Shown piece after piece: positions 15,887 through 41,315 of a DNA stretch of 64,000 bases. The position numbers and the translations under genes are program-made. The notes below the pieces were generated by a model. It saw nothing but the letters and a program-made list of their open reading frames with translations, ran no database searches and was not told the origin of the DNA. The first letter of the stretch is position 1, and the number at the start of each line of letters is the position of its first letter. Location of the stretch: positions 2,658,602 to 2,722,601 of the forward strand of contig NZ_CH724156.1 of NCBI RefSeq assembly GCF_000152625.1, given 5' to 3'. Source of the DNA: Roseovarius nubinhibens ISM (GTDB lineage: Bacteria; Pseudomonadota; Alphaproteobacteria; Rhodobacterales; Rhodobacteraceae).

Positions 15887-15928
15887 TCGGTAAGACATCG
15901 GTATTGCGTCGGCAAAGCGACAGTGCGG
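15887..15928 (+). repeat. Copy A of an 11-bp-period tandem element
   Basis: Four units of about 11 bases follow one another: TCGGTAAGACA, TCGGTATTGCG, TCGGCAAAGCG, ACAGTGCGG. The same four-unit order recurs at 41147-41190 and 41273-41315. All three copies lie in intergenic DNA downstream of plus-strand genes in the same orientation. This copy starts eight bases after a stop codon. Confidence 0.8.
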
Positions 15929-15995
15929 ATTTTGGCCCTCTGTGCCGCGCTCGGGCGGGTGAATTGCCGGCTGCGCACCCCTTGAAAAACCAAAA

Positions 15996-16021
15996 GGGAC
16001 ACGCCGAGCAGAGCGTGTCCC
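15996..16021 (-). terminator. Rho-independent terminator of the tad genes
   Basis: On the minus strand GGGACACGC pairs with GCGTGTCCC around an 8-base loop, followed directly by TTTTGGTTTTT. It lies 25 bases beyond the stop codon of the last tad gene, so it ends that operon. This is one of the clearest terminators in the window. Confidence 0.85.
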
Positions 16022-16045
16022 CAAGGTCTGATCATGTGAACCGGA

Positions 16046-16612
16046 TCAGCTGGCCCAGTCGATTTTCGGCACGAAACGGGGGCTGGTGATGACCCGCGTC
16101 TTGATCTCCATATCCTCGGAAAAACCCGCCGCGAACATCCGCTGATAGTCAGAGACGGATTCGATCAGCAGAATATGTTCACCATCCGACATCAACGGCA
16201 GGGTGGCGTGGCTCGTCGCGATATCCGAGGTTGTCAGGACCGACATTGGGCCGGTGCCGCGCACCTCAGACCAGTAGACCGCATAGCGGTCGGTGTCGAC
16301 GTCATAGCTGATGGCGGTGACGCGGAGCTGACTGCCGGCGTTGTCGTCGACGATGCTGTCGAAGAGGCTCTTGGTGTTGTCGATATAGGTCGTGTTCACC
16401 GTGCCCATTTCACGCGACAGCATGTCGGCCACTGTATAGCTCGCCTTGTCGCGGGCACTGTTGAAGCGGTGTACCTCGAAAAATTCGTAGATCACCATCG
16501 CCGCGAGAAACAGCAAGGGCAGGGCGATTACGGATTCGACCACGAACGACCCGTCGTCGCGCCGCCAGAAGCGGCGCAGACCGCGGCCGAGATATGTCCC
16601 AAAGCCAAACAT
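16046..16612 (-). CDS. TadE-like pseudopilin, second copy
   Basis: A 188-aa protein starting at the ATG at 16612, which overlaps the stop of the previous gene by one base (TGATG). Near the N-terminus (after about 18 residues) is the prepilin-like segment DDGSFVVESVIALPLLFLAA, with the glutamate expected five residues into the hydrophobic stretch. The rest is a periplasmic domain (TVADMLSREMGTVNTTYI, YAVYWSEV). It resembles the TadE/TadF minor pseudopilins of tight-adherence pili. Last gene of the TadG-TadE-TadE set. Confidence 0.8.
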   Translation of the reverse strand: MFGFGTYLGRGLRRFWRRDDGSFVVESVIALPLLFLAAMVIYEFFEVHRFNSARDKASYTVADMLSREMGTVNTTYIDNTKSLFDSIVDDNAGSQLRVTAISYDVDTDRYAVYWSEVRGTGPMSVLTTSDIATSHATLPLMSDGEHILLIESVSDYQRMFAAGFSEDMEIKTRVITSPRFVPKIDWAS

Positions 16613-17148
16613 CAGAGCGGCTCCTGTACAAAGGCGGTTTTGGAAACGATTGCCACCTGTCCGGCGCCATCCTTGTCCAGCGCCTGGGCCAGATCCATGC
16701 CGGGCAGAAGGGGGCTGTATTTCACGCAAGCGCGGAGCAGCATCAGCTCGTTTTGCTGGCCGTTTTGGAAGGTCCGCACCGGGGCGGCCTCTTCCGACTG
16801 ATCGACGCAGTTCACATCGTCGGGCAGCGATCCCAGGGTACGGATATTGGTGCGCACCATTTCAAGCCGCAGCGTGCTGTTGCAGCTGGCGATGATCATC
16901 GCGTTGTCGCAGATGATCTGCTTGATCTCATCATGCTGCGGCGCGCTGCCGGTGCCGAGCCGCAACTCGCGCACCGCGATGTCGAGGCCACGCTCGAGCA
17001 TCGTGTGCCGCAGAGTGATGATCGCCAGTTCGAGGGAGAACAGGAACAGGGTCAGGAAGACCGGGAAGACGATGACGAATTCCACGGTCGCATTGCCCGC
17101 CTGTCCGCGCCAGAACCGCGCCAGTTTGGAAGGAACGAGGCGCATCAT
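16612..17148 (-). CDS. tadE: TadE-family minor pseudopilin
   Basis: A 178-aa protein with the TadE segment GNATVEFVIVFPVFLTLFLF, a single N-terminal hydrophobic helix after a short positively charged leader, then a periplasmic domain containing four cysteines (two in DNAMIIASC and DDVNC contexts) that may form disulfides. It overlaps tadG upstream by four bases (ATGA) and the next gene by one, indicating translational coupling in a TadG-TadE-TadE unit. Confidence 0.85.
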   Translation of the reverse strand: MMRLVPSKLARFWRGQAGNATVEFVIVFPVFLTLFLFSLELAIITLRHTMLERGLDIAVRELRLGTGSAPQHDEIKQIICDNAMIIASCNSTLRLEMVRTNIRTLGSLPDDVNCVDQSEEAAPVRTFQNGQQNELMLLRACVKYSPLLPGMDLAQALDKDGAGQVAIVSKTAFVQEPL

Positions 17149-18911
17149 TGGGTCAGCCGCAGGTTCACAACGTTGGACGCGATGGCACTGAAGGCGTCAT
17201 TGATGTTGATGCCTTCGGCCCGGAAGTAGTGGTTTTCACTCGACGCGCAGTTCTTGAGCACCTGTTCAGCCGTCCCGCCCTGATCGATTTCGAAGCCGAT
17301 CGAGAAGACCACAACACCTTCATTCTTGGTGGCGGTGCAGGAGGCCTTCATCCTTGTGTCTTTTTCCGACCCGTCAAGGCGGTCATAATAGTAGTAGTCG
17401 TAATATGCGTTGGGGTCGCCGGTGACCTGGTAGTAGTAATAAGGCGACATGTAGCCCCAGGCCTCTTCCCAATCGAGGCGCCGCATGCTGACGAATTCAT
17501 CGCTATCTTGAAGATCATCCCAGTCACTGGAACTCAGGTATTCGCCTTCTTCGGTGTTGTAGTAGCGATTGTCGCCATAATTGTCGTGCAGGTAAAAGGC
17601 GCTTTCGATCTCTCCCGAGGATTCGTAAACGCATTCCCAAGAGTTGTTGCTACACTTGCTTTGATCGTAGCTGATCTTGTCCTTCTTGTTCTTGCGATAG
17701 GCGTATTTGAACACGCGTTTCTGAGACTTGACCTCGTAGAGGTCCGAGTTCTGGCCGCGCCATTGGCCGCCATTCGAGAAGAAATAAGAGGTGGTGTTCT
17801 GCCCATCGCCCATGACCACGGCGACCTTGAGCGTTTCCGCCGTGCCGTAATTGGACGGGATAGCGGCCTGCGACGAGGCAACCTCGCCCGCGGCGATCAG
17901 ATCGTCGGTGATCTGGCGGAAGCTCGGGTCGAGCAGCGCCGCGCCCCAGATCATGCCCTGGTTGCCCGAGGTATTGCCCGAGGCTTGAAGGCTGTCGATC
18001 TTGGCGTGCAACTCGGTTTCGCTAACCGAGAAGGGCAGGATTTCCATGTAATCATTGGCGTAGCAGGACCGATAGTCAGACGAGCTTTCGCTGCCGCTGA
18101 ATTCGTCGAAATTCCCGTAAAGCGCGGTGTAGATCATCTGGTCGAGCGGTTGACCGCTGGAAAAGCCCGAATTGCCGGTGGCCAGCGAGGCATGGCTGTG
18201 ATCGTTGGCCTTGAACCGGATACAGGTCGAAAATTCATGCTTGCGGTCAACGGCAAGGGCCTCGAACGTGGCGACCGACGGGCTCACCGACCAGCTAAAG
18301 GGCACGATAGAGATCACGGTATTGCCCGGCTCGGAGCCGTTCAGCAGCGAGGTCACAAATTCCTTGGCGGCTTTCTTGAGGTTCACCAGCTTGCTGTTGC
18401 TGCCCATCGAGCCCGACACGTCGAGGACCAGAACCACTTCGAGCTTCGGCACTTTGCGCACAGCGGTCGAGCCGCCGGTGGTGCGCAGCTCTTTGATGCC
18501 GCTGAGCTTCATGAGATAGGTGTCCATCGTCATATCGGCATTGGCGGTGACCGAGGCCGAGTTGACCGTAACCACGATCTCGCCTTCTTTTTCAGCGGCG
18601 AGATAGTCGGTCATATTCGCGACGCGAAAGTAATCCTCGATGATGGCACGGTGATCCGACCCGTAGGGCGCACCGGCCGAGGCCAGCACGGCGGAATCGA
18701 GCGTCGACTGGATCTGCGCGCGTTTCATTTCATAGCGCATCATATCGACTGCGATGCCGCCAGCGGCGATCATGATGAGAAAGAAAACCAGGGCCATGAT
18801 CGTCGCGCCACCGTTTTCGTCACGGCGGAACGCGCGGGTCGCGGCGGGCAGTGCGTGCCGGCCTTTTGCGACCGCGTGGCGGAGAGCCTGGAAAGAAATT
18901 CGCGTTGTCAT
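17145..18911 (-). CDS. tadG: TadG-like von Willebrand factor A protein with Tyr-rich insert
   Basis: A 588-aa protein beginning with a prepilin-type membrane segment (NGGATIMALVFFLIMIAAGG, residues 33-52). A von Willebrand A domain follows with an intact MIDAS motif DVSGSMGS at 164-171. Within it, around residues 450-520, is an acidic, tyrosine-rich stretch including SPYYYYQVTGDP and NAYYDYYYYDRLDG, eleven tyrosines within about 25 residues. The C-terminus returns to conserved sequence (CASSENHYFRAEGININDAF). Likely surface-exposed and involved in adhesion with Tad pili. The rest of a tad locus is not in this window. Confidence 0.85.
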   Translation of the reverse strand: MTTRISFQALRHAVAKGRHALPAATRAFRRDENGGATIMALVFFLIMIAAGGIAVDMMRYEMKRAQIQSTLDSAVLASAGAPYGSDHRAIIEDYFRVANMTDYLAAEKEGEIVVTVNSASVTANADMTMDTYLMKLSGIKELRTTGGSTAVRKVPKLEVVLVLDVSGSMGSNSKLVNLKKAAKEFVTSLLNGSEPGNTVISIVPFSWSVSPSVATFEALAVDRKHEFSTCIRFKANDHSHASLATGNSGFSSGQPLDQMIYTALYGNFDEFSGSESSSDYRSCYANDYMEILPFSVSETELHAKIDSLQASGNTSGNQGMIWGAALLDPSFRQITDDLIAAGEVASSQAAIPSNYGTAETLKVAVVMGDGQNTTSYFFSNGGQWRGQNSDLYEVKSQKRVFKYAYRKNKKDKISYDQSKCSNNSWECVYESSGEIESAFYLHDNYGDNRYYNTEEGEYLSSSDWDDLQDSDEFVSMRRLDWEEAWGYMSPYYYYQVTGDPNAYYDYYYYDRLDGSEKDTRMKASCTATKNEGVVVFSIGFEIDQGGTAEQVLKNCASSENHYFRAEGININDAFSAIASNVVNLRLTQ

Positions 18912-19233
18912 TTCATCACCTCATCGGGCCGGGGTGGCCAAAGCCGAGTCGGATTACGGCAACAGTTGTTTTGGCGGGGCAAAGTGGCGAAAATAGGGCC
19001 GAATTCGCTCAAAATTACCTTAAATTCAGGGGTTTAGTGGACGTTTCGGCGGGATTCGGAATATTGTCGCGCCACTGGCGACAATCCGAGGGTTGGCGTC
19101 CCTCGACCAAGGCAGAGCGAAATCATGGCTTCGGGCCATATGGCTGGACAAATACCTGTGGTGCTTTAACGATATTGACATGCTTTGCGCGATAGCAAGG
19201 CAGCAAGGCCCGCCACTAGTCTGGGAGGATGAT
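18912..19233. other. Divergent promoter region, tad genes and glutamate dehydrogenase
   Basis: These 322 bases serve two divergent transcripts. The left half is AT-richer (AAATTACCTTAAATTC near 19010-19027), suiting a promoter. It contains the inverted repeat listed at 19063-19085 and ends with a GGGAGGAT ribosome binding site before the ATG at 19234. The dehydrogenase frame could start as early as 19093, but there is no family match there. Confidence 0.5.
19063..19085. promoter_or_regulatory. Inverted repeat upstream of the dehydrogenase gene
   Basis: ATTGTCGC and GCGACAAT are exact inverted copies separated by GCCACTG, with partly matching flanks (TCGG and CCGA). The centre lies about 160 bases before the dehydrogenase start and 160 from tadG, so it could be an operator for either. 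The binding protein is unknown. Confidence 0.5.
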
Positions 19234-20664
19234 ATGAGTGCAGCCAAGGAACCGACGTTCCGCGAGAGTGTAGATTTGATGTTCAACCGCGCGGTCGCGC
19301 TGATGGATCTTCCCCCCGGTCTCGAAGAGAAAATCCGCGTCTGTAACGCCACCTATACGGTGCGGTTCGGCGTGCGGCTGCGGGGCCAGATCCACACGTT
19401 CACCGGCTATCGCAGCGTGCATTCGGAACATATGGAGCCTGTGAAGGGCGGCATCCGCTATGCGATGGGCGTCAACCAGGACGAGGTCGAGGCGCTGGCG
19501 GCGCTGATGACCTATAAATGTGCGCTGGTGGAGGCGCCGTTCGGCGGCTCCAAGGGCGGGCTGCGCATCGATCCGCGCGAATGGGACGAGGATGAGCTGG
19601 AACGGATCACCCGGCGCTTTGCCTATGAGCTGATCAAGCGCGACCTGATCAACCCGAGCCAGAACGTGCCGGCCCCCGACATGGGCACCGGCGAGCGCGA
19701 GATGGCCTGGATCGCGGATCAGTACAAGCGGATGAACACCACCGACATCAACGGCCGCGCCTGTGTCACCGGCAAGCCGATCAATGGCGGCGGTATCCAG
19801 GGCCGGACCGAAGCAACCGGGCGCGGCGTGCAATATGCGCTGCAGGAGTTCTTCCGCCATCCCGAGGACATGAAGGCCGCCGGTCTGAGCGGCACGCTCG
19901 ACGGCAAGAAGGTCATCGTGCAGGGGCTCGGCAACGTGGGCTATCACGCGGCCAAGTTCCTGTCGGAGGAGGACGGCTGTATCATCACCGGCATCATCGA
20001 ACGTGATGGGGCGCTGGTCTCTGAAGACGGGCTGCATGTGGAAGAGGTGCGCCACTGGATCGCCAAACATGGCGGGGTCAAGGGCTATCCGGATGCCGAA
20101 TATGTCGAGGATGGCAGCAAGGTTCTGGAAAACGCCTGTGACATCCTCGTGCCTGCAGCGCTCGAAGGGGTGATCCACATGGGCAACGCCGCCAATATTC
20201 AGGCGCCGCTCATCATCGAGGCGGCGAACGGGCCGGTGACGGCCGGGGCCGATGAGATCCTGCGCAAGAAGGGCGCGGTGATCATCCCCGACATGTATGC
20301 CAACGCGGGCGGTGTGACGGTGAGTTACTTCGAATGGGTCAAGAACCTCAGCCATATCCGCTTTGGCCGGATGGGCCGCCGTCAGGAAGAGGCGCGGCAT
20401 CAGCTCATCGTGGATGAGCTCGAACAGCTCAGCGCGGATCGCGGGCTGGGCTGGACCCTGACGCCGGGGTTCAAGCAGCAGTATCTGCGCGGCGCGGGCG
20501 AGCTCGAGCTGGTGCGCTCGGGGCTCGATGACACGATGCGCGCAGCCTATCAGTCGATGCGCGAAGTCTGGCACGGCCGGCAGGATGTGACCGACCTGCG
20601 CACCGCCGCCTATCTCGTGTCGATCGACAAGGTCGCGGCGAGCTACCGCGCGGCGGGTCTCTGA
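19234..20664 (+). CDS. Glu/Leu/Phe/Val dehydrogenase family (probable glutamate dehydrogenase)
   Basis: A 476-aa enzyme from the ATG at 19234, which has a GGGAGGAT ribosome binding site. Family signatures: PVKGGIRYAMGV, the catalytic lysine in TYKCALVEAPFGGSKGG, PAPDMGTGEREMAWI, and the NAD(P)-binding GLGNVGYHAAKFL. Near the end MYANAGGVTVSYFEW is typical of glutamate dehydrogenases. It would interconvert glutamate and 2-oxoglutarate plus ammonia. Coenzyme preference is not readable. Single-gene unit. Confidence 0.9.
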   Translation: MSAAKEPTFRESVDLMFNRAVALMDLPPGLEEKIRVCNATYTVRFGVRLRGQIHTFTGYRSVHSEHMEPVKGGIRYAMGVNQDEVEALAALMTYKCALVEAPFGGSKGGLRIDPREWDEDELERITRRFAYELIKRDLINPSQNVPAPDMGTGEREMAWIADQYKRMNTTDINGRACVTGKPINGGGIQGRTEATGRGVQYALQEFFRHPEDMKAAGLSGTLDGKKVIVQGLGNVGYHAAKFLSEEDGCIITGIIERDGALVSEDGLHVEEVRHWIAKHGGVKGYPDAEYVEDGSKVLENACDILVPAALEGVIHMGNAANIQAPLIIEAANGPVTAGADEILRKKGAVIIPDMYANAGGVTVSYFEWVKNLSHIRFGRMGRRQEEARHQLIVDELEQLSADRGLGWTLTPGFKQQYLRGAGELELVRSGLDDTMRAAYQSMREVWHGRQDVTDLRTAAYLVSIDKVAASYRAAGL

Positions 20665-20777
20665 CCGCCGAAACTTAGGATGAGGGGCGGGGCCGCGCGC
20701 GGCCCTGCCCAGCCTCTGTCAGGCGTGGTGAGGGCTGCGGGCCAAGAGGCCGGGCGCAAGGGCCATGCCCGTCATTT

Positions 20778-20830
20778 GGTGCGGAGTTGCCATGCGCTGC
20801 GGAGCTGCCATGCGGTGCGGAGGTCGAGGC
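20778..20830. repeat. 18-bp direct repeat, nearly three units
   Basis: GGTGCGGAGTTGCCATGC and GCTGCGGAGCTGCCATGC are adjacent 18-base units with three differences, followed by a third partial unit GGTGCGGAGG that then diverges. It lies 50 bases before the 16-bp array and may belong to the same repeat-generating process. Confidence 0.7.
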
Positions 20831-20880
20831 GGCGCAGACCTAAGGTCTATACGCCGGGGCGCAGGGCACCTGGTCGCGGG

Positions 20881-21071
20881 GCGATCACGCCAGTTTCAAG
20901 CGTTGTCCGTCTCGGAGGACGGCAATTTCGGAAGATGCCGGTTCCGGAGGATGGCAATTTCGAACGATGCCAGTTTTGGACGATGGCAGACTCAGACGAT
21001 CCCTTTGCGGATGATGGCAAGTTCCCAGAGTGACAGTCTCAGAGGCTGCCGGTTCCAGACGATGCGGTGAG
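20881..21071. repeat. Degenerate 16-bp tandem array, twelve units
   Basis: Successive units begin at 20881, 20897, 20913, 20929, 20945, 20961, 20977, 20993 (15 bases), 21008, 21024, 21040 and 21056. Examples: CGGAGGATGGCAATTT, CGAACGATGCCAGTTT, TGGACGATGGCAGACT, CGGATGATGGCAAGTT. The approximate consensus is CGGACGATGGCAGTTT, with a near-constant spacing. Sixteen is not a multiple of three, and stops occur in the frames, so it is not a protein repeat. Confidence 0.8.
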
Positions 21072-21256
21072 GCCGTCAGATATTTTGCCCGTTTCGCGGC
21101 GCGTTGATCTGCGCGCGCGGGGTTGAAAATTTCGAGATTGAGCGGGGGCAGGCGGGCGTCTCGCTGGGCTGAGTTATCGCGTCTCGGGGGCGACCAGAAA
21201 TCTGCGGGGGGTAATCATGGCCCGACCTGGCTGGGCATCTGCCCGAGCTCGGACGT

Positions 21257-21940
21257 TCAGACATCCTTCATCGGGTAATGCTTGGGCATTTTGAGACCCG
21301 CGTCGTGGATACGGGCAGCGAGCCTGTCTGAGAGGAGAAACCAAGGGGAGTGCAGATATTTCTCGCGCCAGAGATGGTGCGACCCGATGGCCGCGCGCGA
21401 CATGGCGACGCCTTTCAGGTCGGCCCTCGATTTGCCTCTGATGCTATACCGAATATGATCCCCGATGCTTTTGTCCTCGGCGTGGCCCGGGTCGCACTCT
21501 TCGAGCCGAAAACAATTGAGGTGGCTGTGAACCACCATGCCGAAATAGGGCACCGGGTAGGGCTTATCCCTTGGCTGGATCAGTTCAATGGGCCAGAATT
21601 GATGTACCCCCGGCTCTAACTCTTCGATGATCTCTTTCAGCCGTATATCGACAGCGGCAAGCCGGTTTTCCAAAGAGATTAATGAGCAAAGCTCTTTATA
21701 GGTTTTTTGCAACCGAAACCGTTTTGGCCGCTCATGATCGGCGAGCCAGCCCATATCCTTTACAAATTTATCGCTGAACTTGGTCCAAGGGACGCCACCC
21801 ATCCCGGAATTCAATTCATTCTGTTCGTCCTCGGTCAGGACCGAATAGAAATAATTCTCGATGGCTTCATCATATCCAATTGTGTCCGCATCAGGCGAGG
21901 CTGCCCCAAATGTGCTCGAACTCAACACTCCCCAGGTCAT
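21257..21940 (-). CDS. Imm11 (DUF1629)-like protein
   Basis: A 227-aa protein, start taken at the ATG at 21940 after TGAGGTG. The C-terminal half has the layout of the Imm11/DUF1629 family: EPGVHQFWPIELI, then a strand-rich middle (PYFGMVVHSHLNCFRLEECD), and the end HLWREKYLHSP, LLSDRLAARIHDAGLKMP. Imm11 members are predicted immunity proteins against polymorphic toxins, but many occur alone. No toxin gene is adjacent. One sampled line within the gene is about 40% GC against about 65% in the core, indicating acquisition by transfer. Confidence 0.6.
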   Translation of the reverse strand: MTWGVLSSSTFGAASPDADTIGYDEAIENYFYSVLTEDEQNELNSGMGGVPWTKFSDKFVKDMGWLADHERPKRFRLQKTYKELCSLISLENRLAAVDIRLKEIIEELEPGVHQFWPIELIQPRDKPYPVPYFGMVVHSHLNCFRLEECDPGHAEDKSIGDHIRYSIRGKSRADLKGVAMSRAAIGSHHLWREKYLHSPWFLLSDRLAARIHDAGLKMPKHYPMKDV

Positions 21941-22262
21941 ACACACCTCACAACTGACACCACACACGCGCCCGGAACCGCCCGGCCGCCGGGGCAGTCT
22001 AGCGGATTTTGGGTGTGACGAAAGCCGGTACGGGGTGTCACGCTGCCGGCCGGGCGATGATGGGGCGGTGGTGTTGAGCGGAGGTTTGGGGCGGGGGCGG
22101 CGCGTTGGTGACGCCTCCTGCCGGGCAGATCAGTATCTGCCGGCCCCATGGTCGCACCCATGTCGGCGCGGGTCGGAATTTGTGCCGGTGGGGGTGGCCC
22201 CCATTGCTATATCCGGCGCATGTTGATTGATTGACGCAACATCGGGAATCGGGGGTAAGAGC
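21941..22262. other. Intergenic region upstream of soxB
   Basis: These 322 bases hold the promoters of the Imm11-like gene and the divergent sox operon. Composition changes from AT-richer on the left to very GC-rich on the right. An AT-rich patch TTGATTGATTGACGCAAC lies near 22220-22240, about 30 bases before soxB. No palindrome stands out. Confidence 0.4.
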
Positions 22263-23516
22263 ATGGGCTTTTCGGGGTGGCGTGTCCTGAAGGAGGGGCT
22301 GACCGGCAACAAGGGCTGGCAGCCGCATTGGCGTGATGCGACGCCGAAATCCGAATATGATGTGGTGATCATCGGCGGCGGCGGGCATGGTCTTTCGACC
22401 GCCTATTACCTCGCCAAGAATCACGGGATCACCAATGTGGCGGTGCTCGAGAAGGGTTATCTCGGCGGTGGCAATGTGGGCCGCAACACCACCATCGTGC
22501 GGGCCAATTACTTCCTGCCGGGCAATTCCGAGTTCTATTCCCATTCGCTCAAGCTTTGGGAAAATCTCGAACAGGATCTGAATTACAACGTGATGCTGTC
22601 GCAGCGCGGCCAGATCATGCTCTTTCATTCCGACGGGCAGCGCGACGCCATGGCGCGGCGCGGCAATGCGATCCGCAATCAGGGCGATGATGCCGAGATC
22701 CTGTCGGTCGGGGCGCTCAAGCGGATGCTGCCCTATCTCGATTATGAACAGACGCGGTTCCCGATCTATGGCGGGCTGATGCAGCGCCGGGCGGGCACGG
22801 CGCGGCATGACGCGGTGGCCTGGGGCTATGCACGGGGCGCGAGCGAGCGCGGCGTCGATCTCATCCAGAATTGCGAAGTGACCGGCATCGACCGCGAGGG
22901 CGGCCGGGTCACCGGGGTGCAGACCACCCGTGGCGCGATCCGGGCCAAGAAGGTCGCGATCATCGTGGCCGGTCGGTCGAGCCAGGTGGCGGCGATGGCG
23001 GGGATGCGCCTGCCCATCGAGAGCCATGTGCTTCAGGCCTTTGTGACCGAGGGGCTCAAGCCGGTGATCGACCATGTGGTCAGTTTCGGCATGGGGCATT
23101 TCTATATCAGCCAGTCGGACAAGGGCGGGCTCGTCTTTGGCGGCGATCTCGACATGTATGCCTCTTATGCGCAGCGCGGCAACCTGCCCATCGTGGAACA
23201 TGTGATGGAGGCGGGGATGACCCTGATGCCGATGATCGGCAAGGCCAAGCTGTTGCGCAGCTGGGGCGGCATCATGGATATGAGCCCTGATGGCAGCCCG
23301 ATCATCGACAAGACCGATACCGAGGGGCTCTTTCTCAATTGCGGCTGGTGTTATGGCGGGTTCAAGGCGGTGCCGGGCTCGGGCTATTCCACCGCGCATC
23401 TGATCGCGACCGAGACCCATCACGCCCCCGCCGCGCGCTATCGGCTCGACCGGTTCCGCACCGGGCGCGGGCTGATGGATGAAGAGGGCACCGGGTCGCA
23501 GCACAACCTGCATTGA
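22263..23516 (+). CDS. soxB: Sarcosine oxidase beta subunit
   Basis: A 417-aa flavoprotein subunit of heterotetrameric sarcosine oxidase. The start is MGFSGWRVLKEGLTGNKGW at 22263, the conserved family N-terminus, after GGGGGTAAG. The FAD-binding Rossmann motif is VVIIGGGGHGLSTAYYLAKN. The histidine in TARHDAVAWGYARGA is at the position where the covalent FMN is attached in studied members. The C-terminus includes LFLNCGWCYGGFKAVPGSG. It oxidises the methyl group of sarcosine, the last demethylation in glycine betaine breakdown. First gene of soxBDAG. Confidence 0.96.
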   Translation: MGFSGWRVLKEGLTGNKGWQPHWRDATPKSEYDVVIIGGGGHGLSTAYYLAKNHGITNVAVLEKGYLGGGNVGRNTTIVRANYFLPGNSEFYSHSLKLWENLEQDLNYNVMLSQRGQIMLFHSDGQRDAMARRGNAIRNQGDDAEILSVGALKRMLPYLDYEQTRFPIYGGLMQRRAGTARHDAVAWGYARGASERGVDLIQNCEVTGIDREGGRVTGVQTTRGAIRAKKVAIIVAGRSSQVAAMAGMRLPIESHVLQAFVTEGLKPVIDHVVSFGMGHFYISQSDKGGLVFGGDLDMYASYAQRGNLPIVEHVMEAGMTLMPMIGKAKLLRSWGGIMDMSPDGSPIIDKTDTEGLFLNCGWCYGGFKAVPGSGYSTAHLIATETHHAPAARYRLDRFRTGRGLMDEEGTGSQHNLH

Positions 23517-23576
23517 TCTGCGGGGCAGAGGTTTGGACATGAGCATGAAGAGCATGATGACAGCGAGGGGCGCAGC

Positions 23577-23849
23577 ATGAGGATCACCTGTCCGCTATGT
23601 GGCGCGCGCGACCGGCGCGAGTTTTACTATTCCGGGGCGGCGGTGGCGCTCGACCGGCCGGCGCCCGAGGCCGGGGCCGAGGTCTGGGATGACTACCTGC
23701 ACAACCGCGACAACCCGGCCGGGGTGACGCGGGACATGTGGTATCACGAGTTGGGCTGTGGCTCTTGGGTGGTGGTGACGCGCAACACGGTGAGCCATGA
23801 GGTGATCGGCACCGCGCTCGCCCGCGATGAAAAGGGGCGGGGCGCATGA
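23577..23849 (+). CDS. soxD: Sarcosine oxidase delta subunit
   Basis: A 90-aa zinc-binding structural subunit. The zinc ligands expected from studied family members are present: Cys5 and Cys8 (CPLCG), His57 and Cys61 (YHELGCGSW). It overlaps soxA by four bases (ATGA). Length is normal. Confidence 0.96.
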   Translation: MRITCPLCGARDRREFYYSGAAVALDRPAPEAGAEVWDDYLHNRDNPAGVTRDMWYHELGCGSWVVVTRNTVSHEVIGTALARDEKGRGA

Positions 23850-32004: not shown

Positions 32005-32028
32005 GGGTATTTCTCACCAGAAAGAGGC
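32005..32028 (+). repeat. Dispersed 24-bp intergenic motif, copy 2
   Basis: GGGTATTTCTCACCAGAAAG followed by AGGC, one base different from the copy at 27733-27756. It lies after the rpoD terminator and about 40 bases before yjbQ. Confidence 0.65.
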
Positions 32029-32069
32029 CCGTGCTTGCCAAATCACCGGGGCTGCGTCACGGATAGGGC

Positions 32070-32492: not shown

Positions 32493-32493
32493 C

Positions 32494-34047: not shown

Positions 34048-34194
34048 AGTCCCAGAAGCCACGGTTTCGCGCGGCATCATCTAGCGGCGCAAAATCCCCT
34101 CTACCCAAAACCTTGCGGCCCACCTATAGTGGCTGTGGATAACTGGGCATCAGACCCATGGCGGTTGAGGCAGAGAAGAAGAGGGGGCAAGCCC

Positions 34195-34677
34195 ATGCGC
34201 TGTCCGTTTTGTGGAAATATCGAAACTCAGGTCAAGGACTCGCGTCCGGCGGAAGAGCATGTCTCGATCCGCAGGCGGCGGTTTTGCCCGGCCTGTGGGG
34301 GCCGTTTCACCACCTATGAACGCGTGCAGCTGCGCGATCTGGTGGTGGTGAAATCGAACGGCAGGCGCGAGGATTTCGACCGTGACAAGCTCGAACGGTC
34401 GATCCGGATTGCCCTTCAGAAACGGCCCGTAGAGCCCGAGCGCGTCGAGCAGATGATCTCTGGCATCGTGCGGCGGCTCGAGAGCATGGGCGAGACGGAT
34501 ATCGCGTCGAAAACCGTGGGCGAGATCGTCATGGAGAGCCTCGCGCGGATCGACACCGTGGCCTATGTGCGCTTTGCCAGCGTTTACAAGAATTTCCAGG
34601 CGGCGGATGATTTCGACAAATTCGTGAGCGAACTGCGCCCCGGCGATGCGGTGACGGACGACAAGACCGAGGCGTGA
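34195..34677 (+). CDS. nrdR: Transcriptional repressor NrdR
   Basis: A 160-aa repressor of ribonucleotide reductase genes. The start is MRCPFCG at 34195, after GAGGGGGCAAGCCC; the frame upstream from 34129 has no homology. The zinc ribbon uses two CxxC pairs (CPFCGN and CPACGG), and the ATP-cone follows ([39 protein letters not shown]). It senses ATP/dATP and controls dNTP supply. Overlaps ribD by four bases (GTGA). Confidence 0.97.
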
Positions 34678-35768
34678 GCGAGCAAGACATCCACCACATG
34701 CGCGAGGCGCTGCGCCTCGGGCGCAGCGCGATGGGATCGGCCTGGCCGAACCCGGCGGTGGGCTGTGTCATCGTGGCGGGCGATCAGATCGTCGGGCGCG
34801 GCGCCACGGCCCCCGGCGGTCGCCCCCATGCCGAGCCGCAAGCGCTGGCCGAGGCGGGCGCGGCGGCGCGGGGCGCGACCGCCTATGTCACGTTGGAGCC
34901 TTGCGCCCATCACGGCAAGACGCCGCCCTGCGCCGAGGTGCTGATCAAGGCGGGTGTGGCGCGGGTTGTGGTGGCCGTGGGCGACAGTGATCCACGGGTT
35001 TCGGGGCGCGGCATCGAGATGCTGCGCAAGGCCGGGATCGAGGTCGTGCAAGGCGTTCTCGAGGATGAGGCGCGCACGGATTTGGCCGGGTTTTTCCTCC
35101 GGATCGAGGAGGGGCGGCCTTGGGTCACGCTCAAGCTCGCCAGCAGTTTCGATGGCCGGATTGCCACCGCCAGCGGTCATAGCCAATGGATCACCGGGCC
35201 CGAGGCGCGGCAGCGCGTGCATGAGTTTCGCGCCCGTCACGATGCGGTCATGGTCGGGGCGGGAACGGCGCGGGCCGACAATCCCATGCTCACCGTGCGG
35301 GGCCTCGATGTCCCGCGTCAGCCGGTGCGGGTGGTTGTGTCACGGCGTCTCGATGTGCCGCTGATGTCGGAACTGGCGCGCACCGCGGGCGAGGTGCCGG
35401 TCTGGATGTGCCACGGGCCGGATGCTGACAAATCGCTGCGCGAGGCGTGGCAGGGGCTTGGGGCCGAGCTGGTCGAATGTCGGCTGCATGGCCGGCAGCT
35501 CGAGATCGGATCGGTGCTGCAGGCGTTGGGCGAACGGGGGCTGACGCGGGTTTTCTGCGAAGGCGGTGGGGCGCTGGCCGCGTCGCTTTTGTCGGCGGGG
35601 CTGGTGGATGAGCTGATCGGCTTTACCGCTGGCGTCGTCATCGGGGCCGAAGGGCTTCCCGGCGTGGGCGCGATGGGTCTGGCGCGGCTCGAAGAGGCGC
35701 CGCGTTTTCGTCTGATCGAAGCGGCGGCCGTGGGCGGTGACATCATGCACCGCTGGCACCGCGCCTGA
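34674..35768 (+). CDS. ribD: Bifunctional riboflavin biosynthesis protein RibD
   Basis: A 364-aa enzyme starting with GTG at 34674. The N-terminal deaminase carries the zinc motif HAEPQAL and [11 protein letters not shown]. The C-terminal reductase has [35 protein letters not shown] and the closing [12 protein letters not shown]. It catalyses two consecutive steps of riboflavin synthesis, deamination then side-chain reduction. Coupled to nrdR. The following rib gene, ribE, is 4.7 kb away beyond a capsule locus on the other strand. Confidence 0.97.
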
Positions 35769-35782
35769 GGGCGTAGCCCCGG

Positions 35783-37810
35783 CTAGCGCCGCCAGAGACC
35801 GGCGTAAGAGGCAAACACCCCCTGTAGCTTGCTCAGCACCCGCAAGGCCGGGCGACGGCCGAGACCCTCGCCTGTGGCAAGCCGTTCGACCACCACTTCG
35901 ACCGGGCAGGGCAGGCCGGTCACCGGATCGCAGTAGCGCGGGTAATCGATGAGCGCCGCATGTACCAACCCGTCGAGCGTCGGGCGGGCGACGCGGCGAT
36001 CGGGCACCGGCCCCAGATCGGTAGTAAGCCCCCAGCCCGCATAGAAGGGCGCGCCAAGGCAGGTGACGGGCAGCCCGCGCAGCAGCGCCTCGAACCCCAT
36101 GAGCGAGGTCATCGTCCAGACCGCATCGACCTGACCGAGCAGGGCGGCGGGATCGGCATTGACCAGCACCGCATCGGCCAAGCCGGTGAGCGCCTCGGCC
36201 TCGATCTTGCCGGGGCGCAGCCCTGCCTCCACATCGGGATGCGGCTTGTAGAGGATCACCGCCTCGGGATGGGCAGCGCGGGCGGCCTCCAAGAGACCGA
36301 GATTGGTATGCACCTCGCCCGCGCCAAGGCGGATAGAGGCATCGTCTTCGACCTGACCGGGGACAAGGATGCGCGGCCCCGGGGGCAGATCCTCGGGCAG
36401 CGCCGGGGCCTCGCCTTGATTGTATTTCGACAGGCCCAGATCGATCAGACGGCGGCGCAGATCCTCGGCGCGGCGGGCCTGATCCCGGCGCAGGTCCGAG
36501 CGCCGCGCGATCCAGCGTTCGAGCCGCGAGGGGCGCGACGGGTCGTAATAGATGCCGAGATCGTCGAGCGCCAAGGACAGCGGCGGGGTCAGCGCCGCGC
36601 CGAGCCCGCGCGAGCGCAGGAACCCGTCTTCGAGCCGCAGCGCGGTGTCGGGGGCGCGGTCGCTCTTGCCCGCCCAGACCATATCGCGGCGATCCGGCGC
36701 GCTCCGGTCAAAGATCACCCGGCGTTCGCGGCCAAAGAACCCCTGCAGCGCGGGCCGTTTCCAGAGCCGCATACCATGGGCGCACCAGCCCCGGCGATCC
36801 TCGCGCCAGGCGCGGGTCCGTGCCTCGAGCGTGGCGAGCGTCTCCTCGAAACTGCACAGCCGGTCGTGGCAGGGGTCATACCAATGCGGATAGAGCAGCA
36901 TGGCCCCGGCAAAGAGCTGTGCCCGAGTGAGGTTGCGGCCCCGGCGCGGCAACGACAGCGGATGGCGGTCCTCGGTGAGCCCCCAGCCGGCATAGAAGGG
37001 CTGGCCAAAGACGCGGGGGCGGTGACCGGCGAGAATGGCCTCAAAGCCGAGCTGCGAGGTGACCACATAGACGCCGATGGCCCCTTCGAGCAGATGCCAG
37101 GGGCTCACCTCCTCGGAAAAGAGCGAAATCCGGTCGCTTTCATCCTCGGGGCCGAAATAGCCGGGCCGGTGGCCGGCGGCGGTCTCGGGATGGGTCTTGA
37201 TCAGGATGCGCGCGCCGGGGTGGTCCTCTTGGGCATAGTAGAGCGCCTCGCGAAAGCTGTTGGCATCGGACTTGCCATGGGTGACGGAGGCGTCGCCCCG
37301 GGTCTGGTCGATGACCAGCACATAGCCCGGATCGGGGCAGGGGGCGTCGGGGTCAAATCCCGAGTATTTGCTCAGATGCGCCTCGGTCATCCGGGCGATC
37401 CCGGCGCGGGCCCGGTCGAGCAGCGCCGTGTCGTCGAGCGGATGCTCGCGCAGTAGGGTTTCAAGGTCGGACGCGCTGTCGCTGTCGAAATAGATGCCGT
37501 TTTCGTCGATCACCAGACCGAGCGGCGGCTCGCCCGCGCGGCCGGGAAAGAGCGAACGCAGGAACGCATCCTCGACCCGCAACAGCCCTGCGCCGGTTTT
37601 GGCCGACACCGCCTCGCCCCGTGCGGCATAGGGCGAGCGACCCCAGACCGCGATGCGATCCTCAGGCCCAGCGCGTCCCAGCGAGAGCGGATAGCCCGCC
37701 AGCGCCATGATCCGACGCAGGCGCTTTTGCCGCAAAAAGCCGCCGTTAAAATAGCGAACCCGCCGCCCCCCGGAGGGAACGGCGGGTTCAGCCGTTGGGT
37801 CTGTGATCAT
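35783..37810 (-). CDS. kpsC: Capsule Kdo-linker transferase KpsC (LipA-like)
   Basis: A 675-aa protein built of two homologous halves. Matching elements in each: RVEDAFLRS and RLEDGFLRS, ENGIYFDSDS and DLGIYYDPSR, LIKTHPE and LYKPHPD, TSQLGFEAIL and TSLMGFEALL, QPFYAGWGLTED and APFYAGWGLTTD. In this family the two domains add alternating beta-linked Kdo residues to the lipid anchor of group 2 capsules, with KpsS adding the first. The gene is translationally coupled (ATGA overlap) to the export protein upstream. Cytoplasmic or peripheral to the inner membrane. Confidence 0.93.
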   Translation of the reverse strand: MITDPTAEPAVPSGGRRVRYFNGGFLRQKRLRRIMALAGYPLSLGRAGPEDRIAVWGRSPYAARGEAVSAKTGAGLLRVEDAFLRSLFPGRAGEPPLGLVIDENGIYFDSDSASDLETLLREHPLDDTALLDRARAGIARMTEAHLSKYSGFDPDAPCPDPGYVLVIDQTRGDASVTHGKSDANSFREALYYAQEDHPGARILIKTHPETAAGHRPGYFGPEDESDRISLFSEEVSPWHLLEGAIGVYVVTSQLGFEAILAGHRPRVFGQPFYAGWGLTEDRHPLSLPRRGRNLTRAQLFAGAMLLYPHWYDPCHDRLCSFEETLATLEARTRAWREDRRGWCAHGMRLWKRPALQGFFGRERRVIFDRSAPDRRDMVWAGKSDRAPDTALRLEDGFLRSRGLGAALTPPLSLALDDLGIYYDPSRPSRLERWIARRSDLRRDQARRAEDLRRRLIDLGLSKYNQGEAPALPEDLPPGPRILVPGQVEDDASIRLGAGEVHTNLGLLEAARAAHPEAVILYKPHPDVEAGLRPGKIEAEALTGLADAVLVNADPAALLGQVDAVWTMTSLMGFEALLRGLPVTCLGAPFYAGWGLTTDLGPVPDRRVARPTLDGLVHAALIDYPRYCDPVTGLPCPVEVVVERLATGEGLGRRPALRVLSKLQGVFASYAGLWRR

Positions 37811-38952
37811 ATACCGCTAAGCGTGTCGCCGGCCGTCGAGACCGACCCGACCGCGCCCAGCGTGCCGGTCATCGCGGCAATCACCTTGGTCCATTGGGCA
37901 AACGGCGCCTCGGTCACATAGAGCGTGTCATCGTCGCGGATCGAGAAATCGCGCGCCATGAACATGCCGTTGGGCCGCGTCAGGTCGAGCACATAGACCA
38001 TGCGCTGTGCCCCCACGAGATCGTCGCGGCCGAGCACCTGATTGGCGATCTCGGCAGGTTCGTTGCGCATCACGAAAACCCCGGTGGGATCGGCGCTGAC
38101 GGTGCTGAGGCCGCCGACCTGCGCAATCGCCTCGACGGCGCTGAGCGTCTGGGTTTCAAAGGCGACGCGCGCCTGCCCGTTGGTCGCGCCGAGCGCGGTG
38201 AAGGAGCGGGTGTCCTGTTCCACGAGGATTCGGTCGCCACCACGCAGGGCGATGTCATATTCGGGATGCTCATAGAGGTCCTGGAACCAGATTTTCGAGC
38301 GCTGGTTGCCACGCAGAATGGTGATCTGGGCCACTTCGGGCGAAATGGCGATGCCGCCCGCCGCCGCCAGCATGGCCGAGAGCGTGCGGGTGGGCCGTTC
38401 GATCGGATAGACGCCTTGGCCGCCAACAGCCCCCGAGAGCGTCACGGTCGAGCCATCACCCGCCACGCGTGCCACCTGCACCTGCGGGTCAGGGGTCTGC
38501 TCTTCGAGCTTGCGGGTGATGATGCGGCGAATGGATTCGGGCGTGTTGCCTGCGGCCTTGATGCGGCCGGCATAGGGCACGAAAATATGGCCAGAACCGT
38601 CGACCTGCACCTCTTCGAGCCGCGTCTGGCTGGTGCCTTCGCTGGCGAGAAGCCCGTCATCGACGTTTTCCCAGATCGACAGGCTGAGCGTGTCGCCCGG
38701 CTGGATCGTGTCCGACCCGAGCTTGCCCGCGCTGCGGAAGGCTTCGGTAAAGCCGAGGCTGGGCTGCACGGCGGTGGCGCGGGTCACACGGTCGTTGACC
38801 GCCACGACAAAGGCATCGCCGGACCGTTGCACCGACCCTGCATAAATCTCACGTTTGTTGGGGCCAACGCGCGGAAGGCCACAGGACGAAACGACCGCCA
38901 CCATGGCCAAAAGGGCGACGGATCGCGCCCATCGGGTTGTCTTGATTTTCAC
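37807..38952 (-). CDS. Polysaccharide export outer-membrane lipoprotein (Wza/KpsD type)
   Basis: A 381-aa lipoprotein with signal sequence and lipobox (MVAVVSSC). The poly-export domain begins at DTIQPGDTLSLSIWENVDD and contains VQVDGSGHIFVPYAGRIKA. Two SLBB-like modules follow (VTLSGAVGGQGVYPIERPTR, with RILVEQDTRSFTALGATNGQ). It would form the outer-membrane channel for the capsule made with KpsC and KpsS. The inner-membrane ABC transporter genes (kpsE, kpsM, kpsT) are not in this window. Four CCAACC-type boxes lie just upstream. Confidence 0.88.
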   Translation of the reverse strand: MKIKTTRWARSVALLAMVAVVSSCGLPRVGPNKREIYAGSVQRSGDAFVVAVNDRVTRATAVQPSLGFTEAFRSAGKLGSDTIQPGDTLSLSIWENVDDGLLASEGTSQTRLEEVQVDGSGHIFVPYAGRIKAAGNTPESIRRIITRKLEEQTPDPQVQVARVAGDGSTVTLSGAVGGQGVYPIERPTRTLSAMLAAAGGIAISPEVAQITILRGNQRSKIWFQDLYEHPEYDIALRGGDRILVEQDTRSFTALGATNGQARVAFETQTLSAVEAIAQVGGLSTVSADPTGVFVMRNEPAEIANQVLGRDDLVGAQRMVYVLDLTRPNGMFMARDFSIRDDDTLYVTEAPFAQWTKVIAAMTGTLGAVGSVSTAGDTLSGI

Positions 38953-38997
38953 TGCCCGGTCTCCTCGACCTGATTAATTCTGCCTCAGTAGTTTTAT

Positions 38998-39071
38998 CCA
39001 ACCCATAGGAATAGGTTTGGTTTTTTGTCCAACCTACCGAAATAGGATCGGAAAATCCAGCGCTAGGTTGG
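38998..39071. promoter_or_regulatory. Four alternating CCAACC boxes upstream of the export lipoprotein
   Basis: The 126-base gap between the two capsule transcripts has a box CCAACCCAT at 38998, its reverse form TAGGTTTGG at 39012-39020, CCAACCTAC at 39029, and TAGGTTGG at 39064-39071. The outer pair of the second set (CCAACCTA and TAGGTTGG) is an exact inverted repeat. Box one with box two is a near-exact inverted repeat. They lie 46-120 bases before the lipoprotein start, where a repressor or activator would act. Confidence 0.55.
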
Positions 39072-39078
39072 GGGGCGG

Positions 39079-40371
39079 TCAGGTGATCGCGCGCAACTGT
39101 TGCCTCGGGGCCGCGCTTCCACTGTGCAACCCGTCATAGGGATCGTCGGGGCTCAGCATCATGTCGACGGTCTGACGCAGCACCTGACGGCGGCCGCGCG
39201 ACGAATAGAACCCGCCCGCCACCTGGCTCGTTTCGAGAAGATAGCGGCGATAATCGGCATAGGCCTTGCGGTCGGGGCGTTCGGCCCCGGCAAAGAAATC
39301 GACGAGCGGTTTGGTCGAGACGAATTCCGGTTTGGCATAGACCGCCGCGCCGAAGGTCTTGAGCGGGATGCCACGCCAGAGCACCTGTTGCGCGGCGGTG
39401 GAATTCACCGTGACGGCGCTGCGGGCCTCGTCCAGAAGGGCTGCAAGTTTGCCGCCGCGAACATAGTGCACACGGTCCTTGATGCCGTATTTACGGGCCA
39501 GGGCGCGGAGGTCGCGGCGGACGGGGGTGCGGCCGTCTTCGAGGGGGTGGGCCTTGACCACGAGGTGGTGGTGCAGGGGGGCGCCTTGGGCAAAGCCGGA
39601 GACCACCGTGTCGAGAAATTCGGTCATGGTGGAGAAGGGCGAATGCATCTGGAAGCTGCTGTCATGTTCGAGCTGCAGAAGCGCCAGATGATAGGGAAAG
39701 CCGCCGTGCCGGATGCGCCATGTGGCGATGCGCCGGTCGATGGCCTGAAAGGGCATCAGGGCCAAGCGTTTGAGATACAACCCGAATTCGGCGCTGACGC
39801 TGAGCGTGCGATGAGGCCGGAAGCCGCGATAGCCCCGGTTCCAGAACAGCACGAACCAATGATAAAGGGCGCCGTAGAAGATGTGGTGGCGCATGTCGCC
39901 CCAGCTGGCGGGGGGCAGGGCGCTGTCCATATCGGACAATTCGAGGTCGCGGCGCATCTGGGCGACGCTCATCTCCATCAGCCGCGAATTGCCATTGCTG
40001 CCGCCGCGCTCATAGGTGACCCAATAGGGGCGCAGATAGCCCTCTTCAAAGACATGGATGGTGATCCCGGCGGCGCGGGCCTGGGCCACGGCTTCGGCAT
40101 GGATCGGGCGGGTGTCGCCATAGAGCACGATGTCGGTGACGCCCTTCTCGGCGATGATCTCGCGCAGCCGGTCGGACCAGGCTTCGGGCGTGTCGGCATA
40201 GGGGATATAGCTCGCCGATTGCGGCCAGAACACCCGGTCGCCCATGTTGAACCCCACGCGCCAGACCTCGGCGCCGGCGCGTGTCAGCATTTTGCCCAGC
40301 CGTGCGAAAAACGGGCCATGCGGCCCTTGCAGGAACAGGAAAACGTGTTTTTTGCCAGCGGAATAGGCCAT
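39079..40371 (-). CDS. kpsS: Capsule Kdo transferase KpsS (LipB-like)
   Basis: A 430-aa single-domain relative of KpsC, starting at the ATG at 40371 (MAYSAGKKHVFLFLQGPHGP). Typical segments: LQGPHGPFFARLGKML, DTRPIHAEAVAQARAAGITI, HVFEEGYLRPYWVTYERGG, VVKAHPLEDGRTP, and VNSTAAQQVLWRGIPLKTFG. KpsS adds the first Kdo to the phosphatidylglycerol anchor of capsule. It is divergent from ribE. It reads toward kpsD and kpsC, with 126 bases separating it from the former. Confidence 0.92.
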   Translation of the reverse strand: MAYSAGKKHVFLFLQGPHGPFFARLGKMLTRAGAEVWRVGFNMGDRVFWPQSASYIPYADTPEAWSDRLREIIAEKGVTDIVLYGDTRPIHAEAVAQARAAGITIHVFEEGYLRPYWVTYERGGSNGNSRLMEMSVAQMRRDLELSDMDSALPPASWGDMRHHIFYGALYHWFVLFWNRGYRGFRPHRTLSVSAEFGLYLKRLALMPFQAIDRRIATWRIRHGGFPYHLALLQLEHDSSFQMHSPFSTMTEFLDTVVSGFAQGAPLHHHLVVKAHPLEDGRTPVRRDLRALARKYGIKDRVHYVRGGKLAALLDEARSAVTVNSTAAQQVLWRGIPLKTFGAAVYAKPEFVSTKPLVDFFAGAERPDRKAYADYRRYLLETSQVAGGFYSSRGRRQVLRQTVDMMLSPDDPYDGLHSGSAAPRQQLRAIT

Positions 40372-40519
40372 TGTCTGAAGGTGCGTCCGATCAGGTAGGG
40401 TCAAATCTCTGGGGGCAAAGCTAGATCGAAATTTAGGCAAAATTAAGGTGAAAACGCCTCGCTTCTTGTCATGGCGCGGCGGGGCGGATAGGTCAGGGAA
40501 AAGCCTGAGGGAGCGAGAG

Positions 40520-41107
40520 ATGTTCACTGGTATTATCACGGATCAGGGCGAGATCAGAGATCTGGAGCAGCGCGGCGATCTGCGGGCGCGGATCGGCTGT
40601 CACTATGACATGGATGGCGTCGATATGGGCGCGTCGATTGCCTGTGACGGGGTCTGTCTGACGGTGGTCGCCATGGGGGCGGATTGGTTCGATGTGGATG
40701 TCTCGGCAGAGACCGTGTCGAAGACCAATCTCGACACCTGGGCCAAGGGCCGGACGGTCAATCTCGAACGGGCGCTCAAGGTCGGGGACGAGCTTGGCGG
40801 GCATATCGTGTCGGGCCATGTCGATGGCGTGGCCGAGGTGATTTCCGTGAAAGATGAAGGGGATAGCACCCGTGTGACCCTGCGCGCGCCAAAGGCTCTG
40901 GCGCGGTTCATCGCGCCCAAGGGATCGGTTGCGCTCAACGGTACGTCGCTCACGGTGAACGAGGTTGAGGGCTGTGATTTCGGGATCAATTTCATCCCGC
41001 ACACCAAGGAAGTGACCACCTGGGGCCGGGTCGCCGTGGGGGACCGGGTCAACCTCGAGATCGACACGCTGGCGCGCTATGTGGCGCGGCTGCACGAGGC
41101 GGATTAA
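40520..41107 (+). CDS. ribE: Riboflavin synthase (alpha subunit)
   Basis: A 195-aa enzyme that dismutates two lumazine molecules into riboflavin. The start is MFTGIITDQGEI at 40520, after GAGGGAGCGAGAG. Two homologous lumazine-binding domains: GASIACDGVCLTVV in the first, PKGSVALNGTSLTVNEVEG in the second, with FGINFIPHTKEVTTWG near the end. ribB and ribH, which often follow, are not seen here. Confidence 0.96.
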   Translation: MFTGIITDQGEIRDLEQRGDLRARIGCHYDMDGVDMGASIACDGVCLTVVAMGADWFDVDVSAETVSKTNLDTWAKGRTVNLERALKVGDELGGHIVSGHVDGVAEVISVKDEGDSTRVTLRAPKALARFIAPKGSVALNGTSLTVNEVEGCDFGINFIPHTKEVTTWGRVAVGDRVNLEIDTLARYVARLHEAD

Positions 41108-41146
41108 CCTTTTACAAAACTCAACTTAAGCCGGAAAAATGCCCTG

Positions 41147-41190
41147 TCGGTGAGACGTCGGTATAACGACGGTAAAGCGACGGTAGGGGA
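41147..41190 (+). repeat. Copy B of the 11-bp-period tandem element
   Basis: Units TCGGTGAGACG, TCGGTATAACG, ACGGTAAAGCG and ACGGTAGGGGA, the last more degenerate. It starts 40 bases after the ribE stop codon, in the same orientation as the gene. Copy C follows 83 bases later. Confidence 0.75.
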
Positions 41191-41272
41191 TCTGACCCCG
41201 CGCCGCGCGGGGCGCGGGCGTTAACCTATTTGCGAGATTTCTCCCGGGGCCAAACCCGCCGAAAACGGTGGG

Positions 41273-41315
41273 TCGGTGACAGGTCGGTATTGCGTCGGTA
41301 AAGCGACAGTGCGGG
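41273..41315 (+). repeat. Copy C of the 11-bp-period tandem element
   Basis: Units TCGGTGACAGG, TCGGTATTGCG, TCGGTAAAGCG and ACAGTGCGGG. The third and fourth units agree almost exactly with copy A at 15887, 25 kb away. It lies between ribE and the end of the convergent DUF3726 gene. Confidence 0.8.

Follow-up and report, generated by a model that had tools for sequence, protein, structure and literature searches.

An array of 11-bp units dispersed along the chromosome arms of Roseovarius nubinhibens ISM: a candidate directional landmark

What a short array of direct repeats, found several times between genes and always read the same way, might do on a bacterial chromosome is the question raised by a 64,000-nucleotide stretch of Roseovarius nubinhibens ISM (the window; bases 2,658,602–2,722,601 of contig C2, the main chromosome of 3.58 Mb). 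In the window, one array occurs three times, each copy made of three 11-bp units plus 6 bp, with the cores on the plus strand at 15887–15925 (copy 1), 41147–41185 (copy 2), and 41273–41311 (copy 3), where a preliminary description of this DNA had placed them. The answer favored here, with a probability of roughly 0.48, is that the array is a directional landmark of the main chromosome, acting at the level of DNA and read by a candidate protein. Its orientation along the replichores, its even spacing, its chromosomal location, its dialects, and the persistence of orthologous sites point to this reading. The direction shared by the window copies is the direction of the chromosome arm and not that of the genes.

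With a 22-base core and up to three mismatches, exactly three matches were found in the window, compared with none in 100 dinucleotide shuffles. In the whole genome, the same search gave 97 matches (47 forward and 50 reverse), all on C2, and a looser pattern gave 90; the reversed control gave none in either case. The union of the core and the looser pattern comprises 123 distinct elements, every one on contig C2, which is a lower bound for the chromosomal copies; a 128-element set adds the listed own-genome matches of a further pattern. Merging of the 97 core matches yielded 94 elements, referred to below as the best-defined set. The preliminary description had proposed a search for further copies and had taken the array for a dispersed element rather than a product of local slippage, and the copies found genome-wide, together with their comparison, agree with it. 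The 94 aligned copies share a conserved block of ~60 bp (−11 to +50) that reads AAAAT, then TCGGTAnCACG TCGGTATTGCG (T/A)CGGTAAAGCG AC(A/G/T)GTG, then ATTTT, the consensus core being TCGGTAnCACG TCGGTATTGCG TCGGTAAAGCG ACAGTG. Most own copies have a unit 4 that starts with AC (A at position 33 has a frequency of 0.83); for the 74 of register 0, this unit falls outside the core search pattern. The hexamer GTTAAC is enriched on both sides of the array (chiefly near −40 to −30 and +60 to +80, counted from where the array begins) and is present in a minority of the 94 copies (upstream in 14 vs. 0.8 expected, downstream in 9 vs. 0.8); the related TTAAC and GTTAA are likewise enriched in two relatives, labeled G007 and G068 in our genome set, and in named relatives. 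Mirrored parts are limited in the own genome to AAAAT/ATTTT and GTTAAC. The highest identity between any two own copies is 0.886 over 70 bp, with unrelated flanks. Pairs of moderate similarity (identity ≥0.75) number 189, compared with 15 in column-shuffled copies, an excess that shows the existence of sub-classes of copies.

The strand on which the elements lie changes along the chromosome. Sites for parS (≤2 mismatches) are confined to 1.380–1.383 Mb, and the element strand flips at this region and again near 3.14–3.24 Mb; a free two-cut scan, run without any prior, also picked 1.38–1.39 Mb as a switch point. When scored by arm, 100 of the 123 copies (81%) read from origin to terminus, as do 75 of the 94 in the best-defined set (p = 2e-9). 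The octamer GGGNAGGG is polar by 108:6 in the 412 kb sampled, which independently confirms the assignment of the arms. In the same 412 kb, GGGCAGGG is polar by 77:3 and gives, with GGGNAGGG, a clear signal of the FtsK orienting polar sequences (KOPS). Gene direction cannot explain the polarity of the array, because genes in the same stretches are on the leading strand in only 192 of 384 cases (50%), and at transcription-neutral sites, that is, between convergent or divergent genes, the polarity still holds for 34 of 42 copies. Nor can base skew account for a ratio of 100:23: outside the elements, TCGGTA (28:32) and TCGGT (528:492) are unpolarized, for which reason a skew artifact was rejected for these two words, and the bias of other array words is mild. 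Going from origin to terminus, polarity in the 128-element set was successively 21/31, 33/42, 18/24, and 28/30.

Other genomes were scored by arm from their own parS sites. Polarity was found in G007 (34/47, p = 0.0015, with the matches of its contig C1 alone scored) and in G068 (16/20, p = 0.006), where 35 of 80 and 45 of 92 genes, respectively, are leading. In 20 stretches of each, GGGNAGGG was polar by 22:2 in G007 and by 14:4 in G068.

The copies are also spaced more evenly than chance would have it. In the set of 123, the coefficient of variation of the gaps is 0.77, compared with 0.99 for random placement (p = 0.002), with a median gap of 25.7 kb; after neighbors within 2 kb were joined, it was 0.74 vs. 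0.92 (p = 0.004). Each eighth of the chromosome carries 12–21 copies. The largest element-free gap, of 170 kb, lies at approximately 1,545,706–1,715,958 of the own chromosome and is possibly an acquired region.

Gene context was taken from a retrained gene caller. Of the best-defined copies, 84 of 94 are outside called genes, and the 10 that overlap one were excluded from the intergenic counts. A gene 3′ end is faced by 72 of the 84 gene-free copies, 55 of them within 60 bp. Between tandem genes, 25 own copies are antisense and 15 are sense; with all sets pooled, the antisense orientation is favored by 70:34 (p = 5e-4, a rough value because the sets share genomes). In these sets, context was counted for 86 of 112 matches in one and 110 were used in another, the rest being near locus ends or without a called neighbor. 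Orientation relative to genes, which the preliminary description had offered as a test, is thus weak and opposite to what an RNA element would give, and a sense or 3′-untranslated-region signal was rejected because the tandem copies are not sense. The processed RNA that it had also considered finds no backing. At the gathering threshold, Rfam matched only a tRNA in the window and no family at the arrays, the three window copies fold no better than their shuffles (z of −0.43, −1.59, and −0.73 on the plus strand and 1.41, −1.43, and 0.48 on the minus strand), and the copies ignore the direction of transcription; an RNA element was rejected on the Rfam and folding results. A transcription element of another kind, which would act in RNA or on RNA polymerase as a roadblock, a polar terminator, or a reverse-read rut-like site for Rho loading, would fit copies that hug gene 3′ ends and tilt to the antisense side. 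We consider it very unlikely, since besides the missing RNA structure and family, both orientations to genes are common, divergent gene pairs, into which no transcript runs, carry 11 intergenic own copies, and the polarity persists in transcription-neutral contexts.

The surroundings of the array also bear on the possibility that it is a head-to-tail binding array for a nucleoid-associated protein or global regulator, with no directional role and with polarity as a by-product. A protein-binding array, one of the roles put forward in the preliminary description, agrees with the evidence as a possibility. The 11-bp period, the A/T tracts on both sides, and the enrichment of GTTAAC do suggest an architectural nucleoprotein complex. 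There is, however, nothing to make a purely regulatory array track the replichore if the genes do not, and most copies lie beside 3′ ends instead of promoters; this explanation is unlikely in our view, if one to be kept in mind.

The array is shared by many relatives, in different versions. A strict pattern was matched in 38 of the 84 genomes of the genus, where some of the single matches are, by eye, coincidences in coding sequence (L126, L133, L149, and L150). In named genomes, the strict three-unit pattern occurs in at least 119 stretches; among the 80 listed, all have Rhodobacteraceae titles except two named only Alphaproteobacteria, and the genera include Silicimonas, Boseongicola, Pseudooceanicola, Roseovarius, Shimia, Sulfitobacter, Salinihabitans, Sedimentitalea, and others. 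An exact 28-base pattern had no match in the named genomes. Two successive TCGGTA units were matched 140 times in the own genome compared with 1–4 times in G012, G047, G068, and G069, while a pattern with GTnGCATCGCG as unit 3 matched 16–20 times in each of these four, seven times in G006, and once in the own genome. Unit 4 is TCGGTG or TCGGTA in most copies of the other relatives, in place of the AC start of the own copies. Judged by these motif counts, array dialects differ between whole genomes, and one unit can change independently of others that are kept, which would imply a reader with non-identical modules and suggests, as the putative reader, a multi-module DNA-binding protein that co-evolves with its sites. 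In an FtsK tree of 29 genomes, element-positive species are found at several places (9 of 26 inner branches well supported). Two side observations concern the build of the array in relatives. One array of G072 (L146) has its first units at 12-bp spacing (TCGGTATCCACG TCGGTATCCATG TCGGTATCGCG), which suggests that the 11-bp period may not be absolute. In G007 (L396–L415, read from −60 to +90 around the array), the array is part of a composite of ~190 bp that runs GAATC, GGTTAAC, GAAAACCCC, the array, TATTTTTT, TTAACAGGGCGYGCGGTG, and then GTACG repeats at +52, +61, and +74 from the last unit. Of 20 copies, 11 have the GTACG repeat at all three positions (with a one-base shift in three of the 11), and a further copy has it at the first two. 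Parts of this composite, such as TTTCGTACGAAA, resemble parS/Noc-type palindromes.

Several sites are orthologous between species. Of the genes that flank elements in relatives and have orthologs in the own element stretches, 23 of 33 adjoin an own element, compared with a background of 167 of 860 (19%; p = 5e-10); counted by locus, the figure is 15 of 21. These orthologous flanks mark nine own elements in eight intergenic regions, and orientation relative to the gene is kept at eight of the nine. Four regions are supported by both flanks (own positions 20743, 167680, and 2307076, and the site that follows the presumed ribE gene of the window) and four by a single flank (268956, 608859, 1254530, and 2013139), the exception in orientation being 608859. 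At these sites, unit 4 starts with AC in eight of the nine own elements and with TC in 13 of 15 relatives' loci, a contrast that is partly built in because many of the relatives' loci were found with patterns asking for TCGGTG. After ribE, G012, G047, and G069 each have an element that belongs to another dialect, and G068 has a diverged one. From such comparisons, array sites appear to turn over, and those that persist mostly keep their place and direction. Downstream of ribE in another relative (G016:C1:3624551–3626009), the 3′ end of the gene is repeated four more times with a period of 220 bp.

On plasmids, the array was not found. The own plasmid-like contig C1 has no match, and BLAST of two dialects (not the G068 type) against 72,556 plasmids returned three short matches only, covering 37–40% of the query at E ~4, in a search that may miss strongly diverged copies. 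As a positive comparison, 8 kb of C1 found 257 plasmid records, many of them from roseobacters, including 46 from Pseudosulfitobacter, 46 from Phaeobacter, 28 from Sulfitobacter, and 13 from Roseovarius. This contig (G000:C1, 96.7 kb) shares 99.4% identity over ~7 kb with plasmids from Alisedimentitalea and Pseudosulfitobacter, and the matching records annotate genes for type IV secretion and for a phospholipase of the cyclic oligonucleotide-based antiphage signaling system (CBASS).

Dispersal and turnover of sites also bring to mind mobile DNA. The copies could derive from a short mobile element whose insertion favors one orientation relative to the replication fork, so that polarity would be a record of insertion and the dialects would reflect master copies; single-strand transposons of the IS200/IS605 type do insert with an orientation preference relative to the fork. 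The high copy number, the patchy occurrence among species, the turnover of sites, the longer and better conserved composite of G007, and the excess of moderately similar own pairs are all in line with such an origin. However, the Y1/RAYT transposase family PF01797 had no match in the own genome, and of the 14 genomes among the 84 in which it was found, 13 have at most one strict array match, the exception being G063 with eight. With this family absent and a core that is not palindromic, an element of the repetitive extragenic palindrome (REP) type moved by REP-associated tyrosine transposases (RAYT) was rejected. Recent transposition in the own genome was rejected as well, as no pair exceeds 0.89 identity over 70 bp and the flanks are unrelated, and the hallmarks of miniature inverted-repeat transposable elements (near-identical copies and long terminal inverted repeats) were not seen in the own genome; the copies of G007 are longer and more alike. 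Orthologous sites that keep their orientation across species, a spacing more even than random, and the lack of plasmid matches speak against this origin too, which we hold to be unlikely, and a shade more so than a regulator array without direction. A viral origin was rejected, the only IMG/VR match being in bacterial-looking DNA beside genes that, judged by their translations, are presumably carB-like and acyl-CoA dehydrogenase-like.

If the array is a directional landmark, its reader would be a protein dedicated to it, bound to one face of the DNA between the two A/T tracts through about four recognition modules, each assigned to an 11-bp helical turn. Every module would be free to drift, and unit-specific dialects would follow from this. 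The asymmetric complex could then give a direction to something that travels along the chromosome arms or organizes them, either as a place where a DNA-tracking motor is loaded or given its orientation or as a gate that is passed one way only. Candidate roles are a motor-orienting signal like KOPS (PMC2680272), an architectural signal like the architecture imparting sequences (AIMS; PMC5993296), or a polar boundary. In the last case, a four-module protein would sit every 25–30 kb on each arm, and a loop-extruding or translocating complex (SMC/ParB-loaded or another motor) would pass it, or be loaded by it, one way, in the manner of CTCF, on the main chromosome only and co-evolving with its sites in Rhodobacteraceae; this specific form, drawn by analogy, seems to us doubtful.

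Several observations weigh against the landmark reading. Neither a receptor protein nor a motor that reads the array is known. About one-fifth of the copies point the wrong way, and the rise of polarity towards the terminus is suggestive (29/31 near the terminus vs. 71/92 elsewhere in the set of 123; Fisher p = 0.06), as is the even spacing in the set of 97 matches, which is a trend (p = 0.064). Some array words are mildly leading-biased outside the array (TCGGTG 278:184 and CGTCGG 215:167, and not CGGTAT, 39:63). Polarity was not significant in G016 (20/34, p = 0.2, scored on copies that match a two-unit pattern with no mismatch) or in G069 (12/17, p = 0.07), and the copies of G056–G059, not placed by arm, have unequal strand totals (13/35, 35/12, 24/43, and 43/22). 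In G007, matches are also on a second contig, C2, which may be chromosome or an extrachromosomal replicon, so that a restriction to the chromosome would be presumptive there. Among the 84 congeners, 46 lack a strict match, at least one of which (G085) has another dialect, and in 400 kb of G076 no related array was found; such apparent absence would make the function of the array dispensable or replaceable. The search patterns used to find the relatives' sites partly dictate which dialects are seen there. In a survey by eye of the 260 bases past the ribE stop codon in 30 relatives, an element was present in one (G068) and in none of the other 29.

To our knowledge, few signals tell a bacterial cell the direction of its arms, and the examples named here (KOPS, AIMS, Chi, and Ter) are each a short, single site. 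An extended array that is evenly spaced, reads from origin to terminus, occurs in many genera of Rhodobacteraceae, was not found on plasmids, and apparently co-evolves with its reader would amount to a further direction code next to KOPS. The organization or guarding of the arms would become testable in culturable marine bacteria, since one can flip the element, take it out, or capture its protein with it.

The window copies themselves differ in how closely they follow the consensus. Copy 1, TCGGTAAGACA TCGGTATTGCG TCGGCAAAGCG ACAGTG, has one mismatch to the 22-base core, while copy 3, TCGGTGACAGG TCGGTATTGCG TCGGTAAAGCG ACAGTG, matches it exactly. Copy 2, TCGGTGAGACG TCGGTATAACG ACGGTAAAGCG ACGGTA, has three mismatches and is diverged in units 2–4, where it departs from the consensus given in the preliminary description. 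The statement made there that the copies are intergenic and read in one direction is upheld by the gene calls: none overlaps a called gene, and convergent gene pairs flank all three. Two of them do follow a plus-strand stop codon at a short distance, as had also been noticed. Copy 1 starts seven bases after the stop codon (15877–15879) of a plus-strand gene at 15409–15879, and is followed by an ATTTT tract at 15929–15933 (plus strand), which corresponds to the position conserved genome-wide at +42 to +46. Upstream of copies 2 and 3 is the called gene at 40520–41107 (plus strand), which, from its sequence, is presumably the riboflavin synthase-like gene ribE; 39 bases separate its stop codon (41105–41107) from copy 2. 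Sequence and genome-wide alignment place an A-tract, GAAAAATG, to the left of copy 2 at 41134–41141, another, GAAAA, to the left of copy 3 at 41261–41265, and a TTTT tract to its right at 41316–41319, all on the plus strand. A GTTAAC at 41220–41225 lies at +73 relative to where copy 2 starts, within the zone where this hexamer is enriched around elements. Elsewhere in the window, region 1–8028 has no gene called by the codon model and its long frames have low third-position GC; with a tRNA at 7854–7925 on the minus strand, it may be an acquired island beside that tRNA.

No description of this array was found in the literature searched. The known systems closest to it share some of its features and lack others. 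Winged helices of the OmpR/PhoB type use head-to-tail 11-bp direct repeats (the Pho box type), and the array consists of such repeats at the same period; unlike those of a Pho box, its units are not interchangeable, and its copies lie mostly beside gene 3′ ends and follow the replichore. The CTCF sites of animals are polar arrays read by a multi-module protein, to which the array may be likened as a possible analogy; no bacterial counterpart of CTCF was found in the literature searched. REP and bacterial interspersed mosaic elements (BIME) are dispersed, intergenic, and palindromic, and are associated with RAYT transposases (PMC2817692). The array resembles them in its ~100 dispersed intergenic copies and species-specific variants and differs in a core of ordered 11-bp direct units, in its polarity along the chromosome, and in a genome without RAYT/Y1. 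AIMS are 8-bp words with a strand bias along the arms and an abundance that grows towards the terminus (PMC5993296). The array shares the bias along the arms, with a hint that it strengthens near the terminus (p = 0.06), but its abundance hardly rises there (12–21 per eighth), and it is 39 bp long instead of an 8-bp word.

Another comparison is with KOPS, an 8-bp chromosomal word that points from the origin to the terminus on either arm (PMC2680272). The array is likewise chromosomal and so oriented on both arms (100/123), and one could suppose that it simply serves this lineage as its KOPS, with FtsK gamma as the reader, since the polarity is the same and no plasmid copy was found. This fails on sequence: a separate, normal, and polar GGGNAGGG (108:6) coexists with an array that has no sequence of that type. 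FtsK gamma is present in 82 of the 84 genomes whether or not the array is (81 with one match over the family cut-off; in the draft G078, it is in two pieces), and in 30 genomes its ends are nearly identical while the array dialect differs. Identity with FtsK/KOPS was thus rejected, and we regard it as extremely improbable. With its 39 bp in a block of ~60 bp, its species dialects, and its far fewer copies, the array would be KOPS-like in its logic, a polar signal along each arm, written in another sequence and probably read by another protein.

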